Part shown: positions 24,194 through 33,285 of the stretch, one piece after another
Numbering within the stretch: position 1 is the first letter of the stretch
Layout: every line of letters starts with the position of its first letter
Assembly (NCBI GenBank): GCA_009930325.1
Contig: RZYO01000017.1
Location: forward strand, 1 to 34,731
Direction: 5' to 3'
Length of the DNA stretch: 34,731 nt
Source: Spirochaetia bacterium
GTDB lineage: Bacteria > Spirochaetota > Spirochaetia > Sphaerochaetales > Sphaerochaetaceae
Notes under the pieces: model-generated
The model's input: the letters and a program-made list of their open reading frames with translations, nothing else
Told to the model about the DNA's origin: nothing
Database searches by the model: none
Position numbers and translations under genes: made by a program

Positions 24194-24952
24194 ATGATAA
24201 ATTTTGATTTAGAAAATACTCTCTTTTGCGGACAAAGTTTCTGTTGGAGAAGAGAAGATGAAAATTATGTGGCTGTTTTAAATAATAAAGTTTATAGAAT
24301 TAATAATAATAGTGATATAACCGATCCATATTTAATTAATTATTTAGATATAAATTTTAATTATAAAGAAACATTAAATACAATTAAAGAAATGAATCCA
24401 GTACTAAATCAAGCAATCGAAACTTGCAATGAAATTCATATTTTAAATCAAGATTTATGGGAAACTATTATTTGTTTTATTCTTAGCCAAAATAATAATA
24501 TAAAAAGAATTGAAGGAATCTATGATACTTTATGTAAAACTTACGGAGTTGAAGTTGAAAAAGGCTATTTTACATTTCCACGTCCAGAAATGATGAAAAA
24601 TGTTAGTGAAAAGGAATTAAGAGATTTAAAAGTTGGATTTAGAGCTCCTTATATAATTGATGCAATAAATAATTCTGATTTACTTTTAACAATAGATACA
24701 ATGGAAGGTGAAGAAGCAGATATTATTTTACAAAAAATAAAAGGTATTGGGCCTAAAGTTAGTGCTTGTATTAGACTTTTTGCTCTCCATGACTTAAATG
24801 TTTTTCCAAAAGATGTTTGGGTAAAAAAAATAATGAAAAATGTATTTGAGGGAAGTGATGAAAGTATATTTTATCCTTATGCAGGATTAGCTCAGCAATA
24901 TTTATTTCATTATGCTAGACTTGGTTATTTAGATGAATATTTTAAAAACTAA
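24194..24952 (+). CDS. ogg: OGG1-type 8-oxoguanine DNA glycosylase/AP lyase
   Basis: A 252-residue HhH-GPD base-excision enzyme resembling eukaryotic-type OGG1. FCGQSFCW near residue 11 matches the OGG1 xGQSFRW strand, ICFILSQNNNIKRIEG (93-108) matches the conserved SNNNIxRIxG, and the helix-hairpin-helix KGIGPKVSACIRLFAL holds catalytic Lys188. Asp207 in FPKDVWV is the conserved catalytic acid. The Lys makes it a bifunctional glycosylase/lyase. The OGG1 length and N-terminal domain separate it from MutY and Nth. It follows cysK by 26 bases with GAGG before the ATG, so the two are probably co-transcribed. Confidence 0.88.
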   Translation: MINFDLENTLFCGQSFCWRREDENYVAVLNNKVYRINNNSDITDPYLINYLDINFNYKETLNTIKEMNPVLNQAIETCNEIHILNQDLWETIICFILSQNNNIKRIEGIYDTLCKTYGVEVEKGYFTFPRPEMMKNVSEKELRDLKVGFRAPYIIDAINNSDLLLTIDTMEGEEADIILQKIKGIGPKVSACIRLFALHDLNVFPKDVWVKKIMKNVFEGSDESIFYPYAGLAQQYLFHYARLGYLDEYFKN

Positions 24953-24977
24953 TAATTCTAGATAAATTTTAAATATA

Positions 24978-25050
24978 TTTTTAGTGATATTATAATTTAA
25001 AACATATGAAATAAAATATTGTGTTTTAACTTGATATCACACTACTAAAA
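24978..25050. terminator. imperfect convergent hairpin between ogg and the GGDEF pseudogene
   Basis: TTTTTAGTGATAT...TTTAAAACA faces TGTTTTAA...GATATCACACTACTAAAA, forming a long but interrupted inverted repeat with internal bulges, followed by TTTTGTTTATTT on the plus strand. It lies between two converging coding regions and could terminate both. The imperfect pairing keeps confidence low. Confidence 0.35.
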
Positions 25051-25089
25051 TTTTGTTTATTTAATAAATCTAATATTAGCTAAAAAATA

Positions 25090-25999
25090 TTAACCTATAT
25101 AAAATGTGTTTTTACCATTCTTTTTTGATTTATATAGTGCTTTATCGGCACGATTTATTATTGTTTCACTGCTATCATCTTTTTTGTAAATGGATAATCC
25201 AAAACTCATAGTTACCTTTATTGAGTTTGTAAAATTATTATTACTTATTTTGTTTAATAAGAGTTGAATAATTTCTTGAGAATCATTAATGTTCGTATTT
25301 TTTTATCAAAATTGAAAATTCTTCCCCTCACCAGCGAGCTAAAAAGCCTGATGATGGGATATTTTGTTTTAGTAAATTACTTAGTTCAATTAAAACTTTA
25401 TCACCAGTAAGATGTCCAAATTCATCATTTATTCTTTTAAAATTGTCAATATCGCCAATTATTATTACAAAAGGAAGTTTTTTTTCACTAGCTAATGATA
25501 GTTGTTCTGAGAGAATTTCATCAAACCTTCTACGATTGTAGAGCTTTGTAAGAGAATCTGTCATAATAGTTTTTTTTAGTTCTAAATTCATTTCCTCAAT
25601 TTTTTTTTGATATTTTTTCTTTTCTGTTATATCAATACTAGAGCCAGCAATTTCAATTATTTCACCATTTTTTTCAACTGGGGATAAAAATGTTTCAAAT
25701 ATTACATCTCCAAAATTCATTTCATAATTACAAACTTCACCATTAAAAGCTTTTTTAAAATATGGCTTAATAATTGAATCCATTTCAGTCCCATAGATTT
25801 CTTTAACCGATTTGTTATAAACAATTTCAGTTGTAACCCCAAATTTTCGAGATATAGGGCCTTCATTCATTAAATAAACAAATTCACCATCTGTTTTGCG
25901 GATACCAATTCGAAAAATATTACTTGTAATATGTTTGACAGTAAAATGATAATTTTCATTAATTAGCCGTGTTGTATAAAAGGATTCAGTTGATTGCAT
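25090..25999 (-). pseudogene. PAS-GGDEF diguanylate cyclase broken by a nonsense codon and a frameshift
   Basis: The intact part (25331-25999) encodes a PAS-like domain (about 18-130), a short coiled coil and the first half of a GGDEF domain, including TDSLTKLYNRRRFDE and GDIDNFKRINDEFGH with its metal aspartate. The frame then reads ARW, TGA (25328-25330), GEEF: the first Gly codon of the GGEEF signature is a stop, one base from GGA. Just beyond, seven A residues (25298-25304) put the rest out of frame by one. Removing one A restores NTNINDSQEIIQLL through MSFGLSIYKKD and RADKALYKSKKNGKN to a TAA at 25090-25092. A good AAGGAG site precedes the ATG. As it stands the product cannot make c-di-GMP; no RxxD inhibitory site is visible. 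A truncated PAS protein may still be made. Assembly error is an alternative explanation. Confidence 0.88.
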
Positions 26000-26045
26000 T
26001 ATCTCTCCTTAATTTTTGACACATAAAAAACTATTTTGATTTGTA

Positions 26046-26089
26046 ATTATTATAGCATTGCTCTTTTGAGAGCTCAATAAAATAATAAT
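26046..26089. repeat. imperfect hairpin in the divergent spacer
   Basis: ATTATTAT/ATAATAAT outer arms enclose ATTG-CTCT and AGAG-CT-CAAT with a TTTG loop, forming a bulged dyad between the GGDEF pseudogene start and the cytidylate-kinase-like gene. It lacks a clean T tract in either direction. It could be a regulatory dyad or chance in AT-rich DNA. Confidence 0.25.
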
Positions 26090-26228
26090 TCACATTTAAC
26101 AAATCAAAATAAGATTTAATAGTAAATGAAAAATGGATATATTAACAATTAAAAGGAAAATAGAGGTGGTTGCATTAGATAATTCAATTAAACAGCTTTA
26201 AAAAAAAGTACTCTTATGTAAAATAAAT

Positions 26229-26257
26229 TTGTATGAAAATTGTACTTATGGTATAAT
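26229..26257 (+). promoter_or_regulatory. promoter of the cytidylate-kinase-like/GGDEF unit
   Basis: A perfect TATAAT (26252-26257) has TTGTAT 17 bases upstream (26229-26234). Initiation near 26264 leaves an 18-base leader containing AGGAGG, which supports ATG 26282 rather than the longer frame beginning at 26240 upstream of the -10. Confidence 0.55.
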
Positions 26258-26281
26258 ATGAGTGTATTTATAGGAGGATTT

Positions 26282-26923
26282 ATGAATCAAGGAACAATTT
26301 ATACTATTGGTAGACAATTTGGTAGTGCAGGTCGACGTGTTGGAAGTGAGATTGCAAAAAAATTAAACATACCATTTTATGATAAAGAATTAATTTCTTT
26401 AGTTTCAAAAGATAGTGGATTAAACGAAGCCTTGATTGAAAATGTAGATGAAAAAGCTGCTAGTTCATTTTTTCAATCACTAATGGCTGGATCTAATCCC
26501 TTTGGTGCTTTCCCAATGGCAACTAGTAATTTAGGACTCCCAGATTTACCTATTAATGATAGAATTTTTTTAATTCAATGTGATGCAATTAGGGAAATAG
26601 CTAAAAAAGGATCATGTGTAATTGTTGGTAGATGTGCTGATTATGTTTTAAGAGAAGAAAAAAATCGTTTATTGTCAGTTTTTATTCATGCACCTTTAGA
26701 TATAAGATGTGAAAGAGCTATTAATTTATATAAAATTCCTGAAAAAAAAGTTTCAAGTGAATGTCAGAAAAATGATAGAACACGAGCACATTATTATAAT
26801 TATTTTACTGATCGCAAATGGGGAAAAGCAGATAATTATGACATCTCTGTAGATTCTTCAATATTAGGGGTTTCTAAAACAGCTGACTTTATTATTGAAT
26901 TTGATAAATTGCGTAGAAATTAG
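26282..26923 (+). CDS. cytidylate kinase-like family protein
   Basis: A 213-residue P-loop-type nucleotide kinase of the Cytidylate_kin2 family, found in many anaerobes and distinct from classical Cmk. The phosphate-binding motif is IGRQFGSAGRRVG near the N terminus, followed by FYDKELI. VIVGRCADYVL, LLSVFIHAPLDIRCERA, and the lid segment NDRTRAHYYNYFTDRKWG are all typical. The true substrate of the family is not well established; CMP is a guess from the name. ATG 26282 has a strong AGGAGG site. The intact GGDEF gene begins 25 bases after its stop, so they are probably one operon, but I know no established functional tie. Confidence 0.85.
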   Translation: MNQGTIYTIGRQFGSAGRRVGSEIAKKLNIPFYDKELISLVSKDSGLNEALIENVDEKAASSFFQSLMAGSNPFGAFPMATSNLGLPDLPINDRIFLIQCDAIREIAKKGSCVIVGRCADYVLREEKNRLLSVFIHAPLDIRCERAINLYKIPEKKVSSECQKNDRTRAHYYNYFTDRKWGKADNYDISVDSSILGVSKTADFIIEFDKLRRN

Positions 26924-26948: not shown

Positions 26949-28010
26949 ATGCAATTTATTAAAAAGAACCCTAATTTAAGAGTTCAAGATGAGTTGAATG
27001 TTAATAACATAACCAGAATCCATAACTTGTCTTTTTTAGTCATATTTATGGAAGTCTTTATGATTATTGCTTCATATATCATTTCTATTCCTTCTTATTA
27101 TAGGATTTCATATTATTTATTATTAATCTTAAGTATAATCTTTAACTTTTTTACTAATAATAAATTTAGTTATAAAAAATTATTACAAAGAATTATTGTT
27201 AATGTAGCCATTTATATTTTTTCGATATGGGGAATTATTATTTCAATAATTGATAATAATAGAGGGATTGCGCCTTTTATTTATTTAATTAATATTAGTT
27301 TAATTGTAAGTTTTATTACTGCAACCCCATTAGAAATGATATTGTATAATTTAATTAATGCAGTAATCTTTTTTATTGTTTTTTATATAAATAATTCCCT
27401 CTCATATCCTTTAATTATTAATATTGTAAGTTTTCACATTGTTTTAGTTATTATTTCTATTGATAGATATAAATCTATTACAACAAATATTGAAGATAAG
27501 ATAAATTTAAAAAAGTTAAATCATGAATTAACAATCCTTTCTACTATAGACCATCTTACTGGATGCAAAAATAGAAGAGGCTTGATTTATGAATTTGAAA
27601 AGTATGAAGGACAAGTTGTTTTTGCATTATTATTAGATATTGACGATTTAAAAATAATTAATGACAAATATGGCCATGATATTGGAGATTTATTTATTTT
27701 AAATTTTGCTAAAATTTTGCAATCCAATTTTGGTCAAAATAGTATATATAGAATAGGTGGAGATGAGTTTTTTATTATTAGTAATGATTATTCATTAGAG
27801 ACTTGTTTAAGAAAATATGAATTTTCTACAAGAGAAATTCAAGAAATATCTTTTGTAACTAATTCTGATATTAAAATGACAACAAGTGGTGGTTATCTTT
27901 ATAATGTAATAACTAATTCAAAGGACTTTGATTCAATTTATAAAAAATTAGATTTAGCTTTATATTCAGCAAAAAGAAAAGGTAAAAATAGGTTGGAATT
28001 TACTGAATAA
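26949..28010 (+). CDS. membrane-bound diguanylate cyclase (6TM-GGDEF)
   Basis: A 353-residue predicted c-di-GMP synthase. About six hydrophobic segments span residues 27-170, then a linker helix leads to a complete GGDEF domain. This has TIDHLTGCKNRRG (199-211), metal Asp230 in LLLDIDDLKIINDKYGH, the signature RIGGDEF with GGDEF at 270-274, and DLALYSAKRKGKN near the end. No RxxD product-inhibition site lies upstream of the signature, so feedback inhibition by c-di-GMP at that site is unlikely. The N-terminal membrane domain is not a recognised sensor type to me. AAAGGA precedes the ATG. This is the only intact cyclase in the window; no EAL or HD-GYP phosphodiesterase is present. Confidence 0.9.
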   Translation: MQFIKKNPNLRVQDELNVNNITRIHNLSFLVIFMEVFMIIASYIISIPSYYRISYYLLLILSIIFNFFTNNKFSYKKLLQRIIVNVAIYIFSIWGIIISIIDNNRGIAPFIYLINISLIVSFITATPLEMILYNLINAVIFFIVFYINNSLSYPLIINIVSFHIVLVIISIDRYKSITTNIEDKINLKKLNHELTILSTIDHLTGCKNRRGLIYEFEKYEGQVVFALLLDIDDLKIINDKYGHDIGDLFILNFAKILQSNFGQNSIYRIGGDEFFIISNDYSLETCLRKYEFSTREIQEISFVTNSDIKMTTSGGYLYNVITNSKDFDSIYKKLDLALYSAKRKGKNRLEFTE

Positions 28011-32154: not shown

Positions 32155-32184
32155 AAATATTTAGACTTTTATTTTTTTATATAA

Positions 32185-32258
32185 TACGCCAGATAGGAGT
32201 CGAACCTATGACCTACTGCTTAGAAGGCAGTTGCTCTATCCAGCTGAGCTACTGGCGC
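32185..32258 (-). tRNA. tRNA-Arg (anticodon TCT), copy 1
   Basis: The 74-base minus-strand gene folds as a full cloverleaf: acceptor GCGCCAG with CTGGCGT (a G-U first pair), D arm AGCTCAGCTGGATAGAGCA, anticodon stem ACTGC/GCAGT around loop CTTCTAA, and T arm ATAGGTTCGACTCCTAT. The anticodon TCT reads AGA, the dominant Arg codon in this AT-rich DNA. The discriminator base is A and CCA is not encoded. It is identical to the copy at 33208. Confidence 0.97.
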
Positions 32259-32284
32259 ATATGTTATATTAAATAACCTCTGAA

Positions 32285-32313
32285 TAAATACTTCATTATT
32301 ATTATATTTTCAA
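32285..32313 (-). promoter_or_regulatory. promoter of tRNA-Arg copy 1
   Basis: On the minus strand TTGAAA (32308-32313) and TATTTA (32285-32290) are 17 bases apart. The bases around the -35 (CTACTTGAAAAT) are the same as at copy 2. Confidence 0.65.
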
Positions 32314-32395
32314 GTAGTTTTTAATTTTTTTTTATTTAACTTGTTTTATTATACAAATTATTTTAAATTAAACATAATTAAATGAGGTGATTCAA

Positions 32396-33160
32396 ATGAT
32401 TAGAAAATGTAATGAAGCTGATATAGAAATATTAAATAATTATTTATACAAACGAAAAGAACTTAATTTGTTCGTAATTGGGGACATTGAAAATTATGGA
32501 TTTAATAATACTAATTTAGAAATATTTATTGATTATGATAATAGAGTAAGAACTATATATCTTAGATTTTTTAATAATTTATGCGTAGTTTCATATGAAT
32601 TATTTTTTGATTTATCCTTTATAAAAGAACTTATAAATAAATATTCGATAAGAAATATATCTGGAGAAAAAGATTTATTGGATTTGATTTCATTAGATGA
32701 TTTTGCATTGAAGCCATATTTTTTTGCTTCTATTGATAAATTAGATCTAGAATTAGATACATCAAATGTAATTGAATTGAATAAAACGCATGTCCCTCAA
32801 TTATTGGAGAAAACAAATAAAATATTTGATATGGATGTTACTGCTCCAGAATCATTAATATTAGAACTTGAAAATAAATCTAAACACATATATGCAATAC
32901 TTGAAGGTGATGAAATTATTAGCTCAGCAAGCTCTAGTGCGGAATCTAAAGAGTTGGCAATGGTTGTTGCTGTTTTTACATTAGAAGGCTATAGACAACA
33001 AGGATACGCTCTAAAATGTGTATATGCTCTTTGTAATAGATTAATTAAAGAAGGAAAAACCGTTTGTTTATTTTATGATAATCCTCATGCAGCAAAGTTG
33101 TATGAAAAAATTGGATTTAAATTTAAAGGGTATTTTTCAAGTCTTCGTAAATTAAAATAG
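32396..33160 (+). CDS. GNAT-family N-acetyltransferase
   Basis: A 254-residue protein. The C-terminal half (about 150-254) is a GNAT fold: strands IYAILEGDEIISSAS and MVVAVFTLEGYRQQGYALKCVYALC, the latter containing the acetyl-CoA pyrophosphate loop YRQQGYA, then VCLFYDNPHAAKLYEKIGF, the usual (N)xxAxxxYxKxGF end. The N-terminal half is a degenerate GNAT-like or unrelated domain. The acceptor is unknown. ATG 32396 was chosen because GAGGTGA lies five bases upstream; the GTG at 32387 would fall in that site. The gene lies between two identical tRNA-Arg genes in opposite orientation. Confidence 0.82.
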   Translation: MIRKCNEADIEILNNYLYKRKELNLFVIGDIENYGFNNTNLEIFIDYDNRVRTIYLRFFNNLCVVSYELFFDLSFIKELINKYSIRNISGEKDLLDLISLDDFALKPYFFASIDKLDLELDTSNVIELNKTHVPQLLEKTNKIFDMDVTAPESLILELENKSKHIYAILEGDEIISSASSSAESKELAMVVAVFTLEGYRQQGYALKCVYALCNRLIKEGKTVCLFYDNPHAAKLYEKIGFKFKGYFSSLRKLK

Positions 33161-33174
33161 GATTAATAATATAT

Positions 33175-33206
33175 AAAAAAGACTCTAATAACATAGAGTC
33201 TTTTTT
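33175..33206. terminator. bidirectional terminator between the GNAT gene and tRNA-Arg copy 2
   Basis: The stem AAAAAAGACTCTA/TAGAGTCTTTTTT (13 bases, six-base loop ATAACA) has T tracts on both strands. It ends the GNAT message 15 bases after the stop and almost touches the tRNA 3' end at 33208. Confidence 0.92.
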
Positions 33207-33207
33207 T

Positions 33208-33281
33208 TACGCCAGATAGGAGTCGAACCTATGACCTACTGCTTAGAAGGCAGTTGCTCTATCCAGCTGAGCTACTGGCGC
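33208..33281 (-). tRNA. tRNA-Arg (anticodon TCT), copy 2
   Basis: Identical base for base to the copy at 32185-32258, with the identity running 76 bases (33208-33283). The cloverleaf, anticodon TCT, A discriminator and lack of encoded CCA are the same. Confidence 0.97.
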
Positions 33282-33285
33282 ATTA

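Follow-up and report, generated by a model that had tools for sequence, protein, structure and literature searches.

A PAS-GGDEF gene, once presumably coding for a diguanylate cyclase, opens with an ATG at position 25999 on the minus strand of a 34,731-nucleotide stretch of Spirochaetia DNA, referred to here in its whole length as the window. The features of the locus are listed below with the evidence for each in brackets; G001 denotes a genome of the same genus.

24194-24952, plus strand: 8-oxoguanine DNA glycosylase (OGG) gene with OGG_N and HhH-GPD, intact flanking gene (Pfam, G001 alignment)
24953-26218, no strand: segment of about 1.27 kb that holds the gene and is absent from G001, limited on one side by the OGG gene's end and on the other by the cytidylate-kinase-like gene's conserved promoter region (comparison; junctions approximate)
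25090-25296, minus strand: 3' remainder of the GGDEF domain in a shifted frame, ending with TAA (sequence, Pfam)
25298-25304, minus strand: run of seven A residues (A7), with a frame change at or beside it (sequence; the GGDEF match resumes in another frame)
25328-25330, minus strand: in-frame TGA replacing the first Gly codon of GG(D/E)EF (sequence; relatives with an intact motif)
25331-25999, minus strand: open 5' part with PAS-like domain, linker helix and first half of GGDEF, 223 amino acids (ORF, Pfam, predicted structure)
26000-26080, minus strand: upstream signals, a ribosome-site-like AAGGAG and a promoter-like pair at 26077-26049 (consensus matches only)
26279-26923, plus strand: cytidylate-kinase-like gene (Cytidylate_kin2), intact flanking gene (Pfam, G001 alignment)

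A GGDEF domain in two frames

From the ATG, 223 codons stay open and end in ...FLARW (ORF 25999-25328, TGA included). At the catalytic motif the minus strand reads CGC TGG TGA GGG GAA GAA TTT, with an in-frame TGA (25330-25328) occupying the position of GGEEF's first Gly codon; in relatives the motif is intact and follows R-W/L/Y/F. On the 3' side of the stop lies the A7 run (25304-25298), at or beside which the reading frame changes: past the run the starting frame soon reaches a TAA, and the remainder of the domain runs on in the other frame to a TAA at 25092-25090. The Pfam GGDEF profile (PF00990) matches the 5' part with its positions 2-79 (E 1.1e-24) and 25296-25090, in a different frame, with its positions 98-160 (E 9.1e-9). 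The domain is recognisable over most of its length, but in two frames, and is therefore read as a single GGDEF domain that a stop and a change of frame have divided; a GGDEF search of the organism's own genome returned the identical split. The earlier note had reported a TGA within GGEEF and a frameshift nearby, with both halves of the cyclase well preserved. The two lesions are indeed present in the assembly at those coordinates, and the two Pfam matches bear out the state of the halves. As the first Gly codon is a TGA and the frame changes downstream, no GG(D/E)EF motif in one continuous frame was found and the gene is not filed as a working cyclase. Set beside intact relatives of about 30% identity, it has the stop and the frame change of a pseudogene. 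No third lesion was seen in the gene.

The 5' part was also said to hold a PAS domain. By sequence the match is weak, with PAS_4 at E 0.011, below the Pfam cut-off, and in relatives of about 30% identity the aligned position is occupied by PAS_4, and the GG(D/E)EF motif is intact. The predicted structure of the 5' product (mean pLDDT 87.5 overall, confident over residues 20-223) finds its top match in the LOV-activated diguanylate cyclase of PDB 8c05, the other matches being LOV/PAS chains as well. This supports the claim, and the 5' part probably carries a PAS-like domain. At most, the gene would yield a product of 223 residues in which a PAS-like domain is predicted to fold and the GGDEF domain is incomplete. 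Because the latter lacks the GGEEF loop, the truncated product is expected to make no c-di-GMP. The related claim that the TGA would block catalysis even if the frameshift were suppressed holds as well, as the stop sits inside the motif and would leave no active site. Upstream, the ribosome site described as preserved was found as an AAGGAG-like sequence before the ATG, and a promoter-like TTGAGC-17-TATAAT lies at 26077-26049, such matches being no commoner in the region than in shuffles.

A full-length protein could still arise through recoding, with the TGA read as an amino acid (as selenocysteine, as Trp or by suppression) and with slippage on the A7 run, programmed or transcriptional. A7 runs can slip. 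There is also a precedent in Shigella, where full-length bands were obtained from dgcQ and dgcN despite nonsense mutations, by a mechanism that is unclear (PMC11327459). Within the window, TGA terminates five of the 30 intact genes and is a normal stop, and A/T runs of 7-8 occur commonly in genes that have no need of slippage. No tRNA-Sec was found in the organism's own genome, in which all matches to RF01852 fall below the gathering score and are tRNA-Leu, tRNA-Tyr and tRNA-Gly, and no SelB reached the cut-off; in a bin about 92% complete these absences are no proof. Folding of the RNA downstream of the TGA is no better than that of its shuffles (z -0.51), so that a selenoprotein would have neither tRNA-Sec, nor SelB above the cut-off, nor a notable hairpin to draw on, and both an alternative code and selenocysteine were rejected on these grounds. 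Moreover, recoding calls for two independent events and would still replace the first Gly of the motif unless Gly itself were inserted. We give it hardly any credence.

The locus in related genomes

The genome of the same genus, G001, is colinear with the whole window. Thirty of the genes annotated in the window align with it at full length and in a single piece, at protein identities of 50-95%. Its order at the locus (CysK, OGG, cytidylate-kinase-like, membrane GGDEF) presents the same neighbours, with the gene absent: about 57 bp lie between OGG and the kinase instead of the segment. The region upstream of the kinase is conserved in G001 and matches 26219-26285 of the window, which delimits the difference between the two genomes to 24953 to about 26218. 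The gene is likewise absent beside OGG in G002, where another gene is found, and in G003, where a glutamyl-tRNA-reductase-like gene is found. Among 139 genomes from the family and 393 sampled across the phylum no ortholog turned up, the best matches being PAS regions of multidomain proteins at about 30% identity; nor was a copy from the same species found. Given the absences at the locus in these three genomes and the lack of an ortholog in the family and phylum samples, the gene is, as judged from these comparisons, accessory and dispensable between species. Gain in its own lineage is a simpler reading than loss from the others.

Two origins were considered. Recent duplication of a paralog was rejected, since the closest counterpart elsewhere in the own genome is about 35% identical; so was an origin from phage or plasmid, with no phage match and plasmid matches only at about 23-31% identity. 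A plasmid search at near-identity gave no matches, one short viral-contig match was seen, the G+C content is like that of the host, and no clear insertion repeats were found at the ends of the segment.

Other features of the region differ in their conservation. An intact membrane GGDEF protein with the motif GGDEF (26949-28010), which adjoins the broken gene, is 63% identical in G001. The cytidylate-kinase-like protein (26279-26923) is 95% identical to that of G001, with its neighbours at 63-75%; since the DNA identity of its gene is 83%, against 76% and 70%, strong constraint on this protein is likelier than recent transfer. Further along (32184-33282), two copies of tRNA-Arg (tct), identical in 75 of 76 bases, flank an acetyltransferase-like ORF (32387-33160). 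This ORF is absent from G001, which has a single tRNA-Arg in the region; it is a second accessory insertion, apparently linked to a duplication of the tRNA.

The comparison also bears on the proposal in the earlier note that loss of c-di-GMP output was selected while the PAS protein was kept. A truncated PAS/half-GGDEF product would then be made and retained as a regulator (a sensor, an adaptor or a dominant-negative partner, which might work by pairing with other PAS-GGDEF proteins), with the loss of catalysis itself selected. In its favour, the 5' part has an open frame, the prediction of a folded PAS-like domain is confident and the start signals remain. Yet the samples of family and phylum offer no orthologs in which selection on the PAS part could be seen, the retained product would include one half of GGDEF, which is unlikely to be a stable form, and the undecayed remainder of that domain fits a young lesion rather than a truncated protein kept for long. 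We therefore set the proposal aside as very unlikely, both for selected loss in general and for a retained regulator. With the whole gene missing from G001, no ortholog found in genus or family and about 21 other GGDEF domains remaining in the own genome, decay of a dispensable accessory gene is the simpler reading.

Origin of the lesions

Whether the lesions belong to the organism or to its assembly is the alternative that deserves most weight. One or both could be consensus errors, arising for example from low coverage of the accessory segment, a collapsed strain mixture or a miscalled homopolymer, and the true gene would then encode an active cyclase. The assembly is a fragmented and partly contaminated bin (413 contigs, contamination 7.94%), coverage of the accessory segment may be lower than that of its flanks, or mixed, and the two halves of GGDEF are otherwise well kept. 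In addition, the lesions lie about 24 bases apart, which has a probability of about 6% if they were placed at random within the gene, and one of them is at a homopolymer; this may mean a local sequence problem. A published Vibrio fischeri genome, in which an incomplete GGDEF domain was due to a sequencing error, provides the precedent (PMC2330054).

The rest of the assembly speaks against such errors. In the genes shared with G001, 29,214 coding bases with 35 A/T runs of seven and 10 of eight contain no frame break, and within the gene's own 5' part runs of 7, 8, 8 and 9 keep the frame. With a uniform spread of two lesions across this coding sequence, the chance of both falling in the gene would be about 0.0009. 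Genome-wide, no internal stops occur in the other GGDEF domains or in the 31 Response_reg domains over the cut-off, and one occurs among 103 ABC_tran matches. (That one match, at G000:C407:4481-4723 near a contig end, is to half of an ABC transporter ATP-binding domain and has a TAG inside it.) With shared genes and other GGDEF domains intact, uniform assembly error is unlikely to have given two lesions in one gene; moreover, a homopolymer error would not produce the base substitution that gives TGA. We consider an artefact, such as local misassembly or a mixture of strains, fairly unlikely, at something like one chance among several, and if the lesions were errors the matter would concern annotation only.

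What remains, and what we regard as probable, is a genuine pseudogene, formed fairly recently from an accessory gene for a PAS-GGDEF diguanylate cyclase. We infer that the lesions are biological, which the intact surroundings in the assembly favour. The gene would have been present in the lineage as a segment of about 1.27 kb between two conserved genes; selection on it would have lapsed; and its activity would have been ended by two changes, in either order: a stop codon arising within the catalytic motif and a shift of one base nearby. Which came first, and how recently, can only be inferred. Recent inactivation, as had been suggested, is plausible because each half of the domain still gives a good score and no further lesion was noticed. 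The position of the stop was rejected as meaningful in itself: the 291 codons offer 132 possible single-base changes to a stop, and as a few of these lie in any five-codon stretch, a stop within the motif needs no special cause. A phase-variable homopolymer was also rejected, A/T runs of 7-8 being common in intact genes of the window. As a pseudogene, the gene would be an example of GGDEF turnover: one species of a genus has the accessory cyclase, already broken, and the next lacks it. The gene should not be counted as an active cyclase.

Comparison with known systems

The nearest structural counterpart, the LOV-activated cyclase of PDB 8c05, is of the single-PAS GGDEF type and shares with the gene the order of PAS-like domain, linker helix and GGDEF. 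In the gene the GGDEF domain is broken, and sequence identity in the structural alignment is about 24%.

Broken cyclase genes have been described in Shigella flexneri, in which dgcE, dgcQ, dgcN, dgcM and pdeR are degenerate (PMC11327459). As in our case, GGDEF genes are broken by premature stops and other intact cyclases are present in the genome. There the stop comes before the GGDEF domain, and restart or read-through can still yield active enzyme, with c-di-GMP having been measured (PMC11327459). In contrast, the stop described here lies inside the motif and is followed by a frame change. Since the two split the domain itself, restart would be unable to supply a complete GGDEF domain. Shigella also has known intact relatives of its genes, whereas none is known for this one.

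In the published genome of Vibrio fischeri ES114, a frameshift truncates the GGDEF domain of VF_1515; resequencing showed it to be a sequence error (PMC2330054). Our gene, known from its assembly alone, differs in having a nonsense codon as well and in lying within an assembly that looks clean around it. Broken cyclase genes of such a kind are well known, and among them this one has the look of a real, ordinary pseudogene of a known kind.
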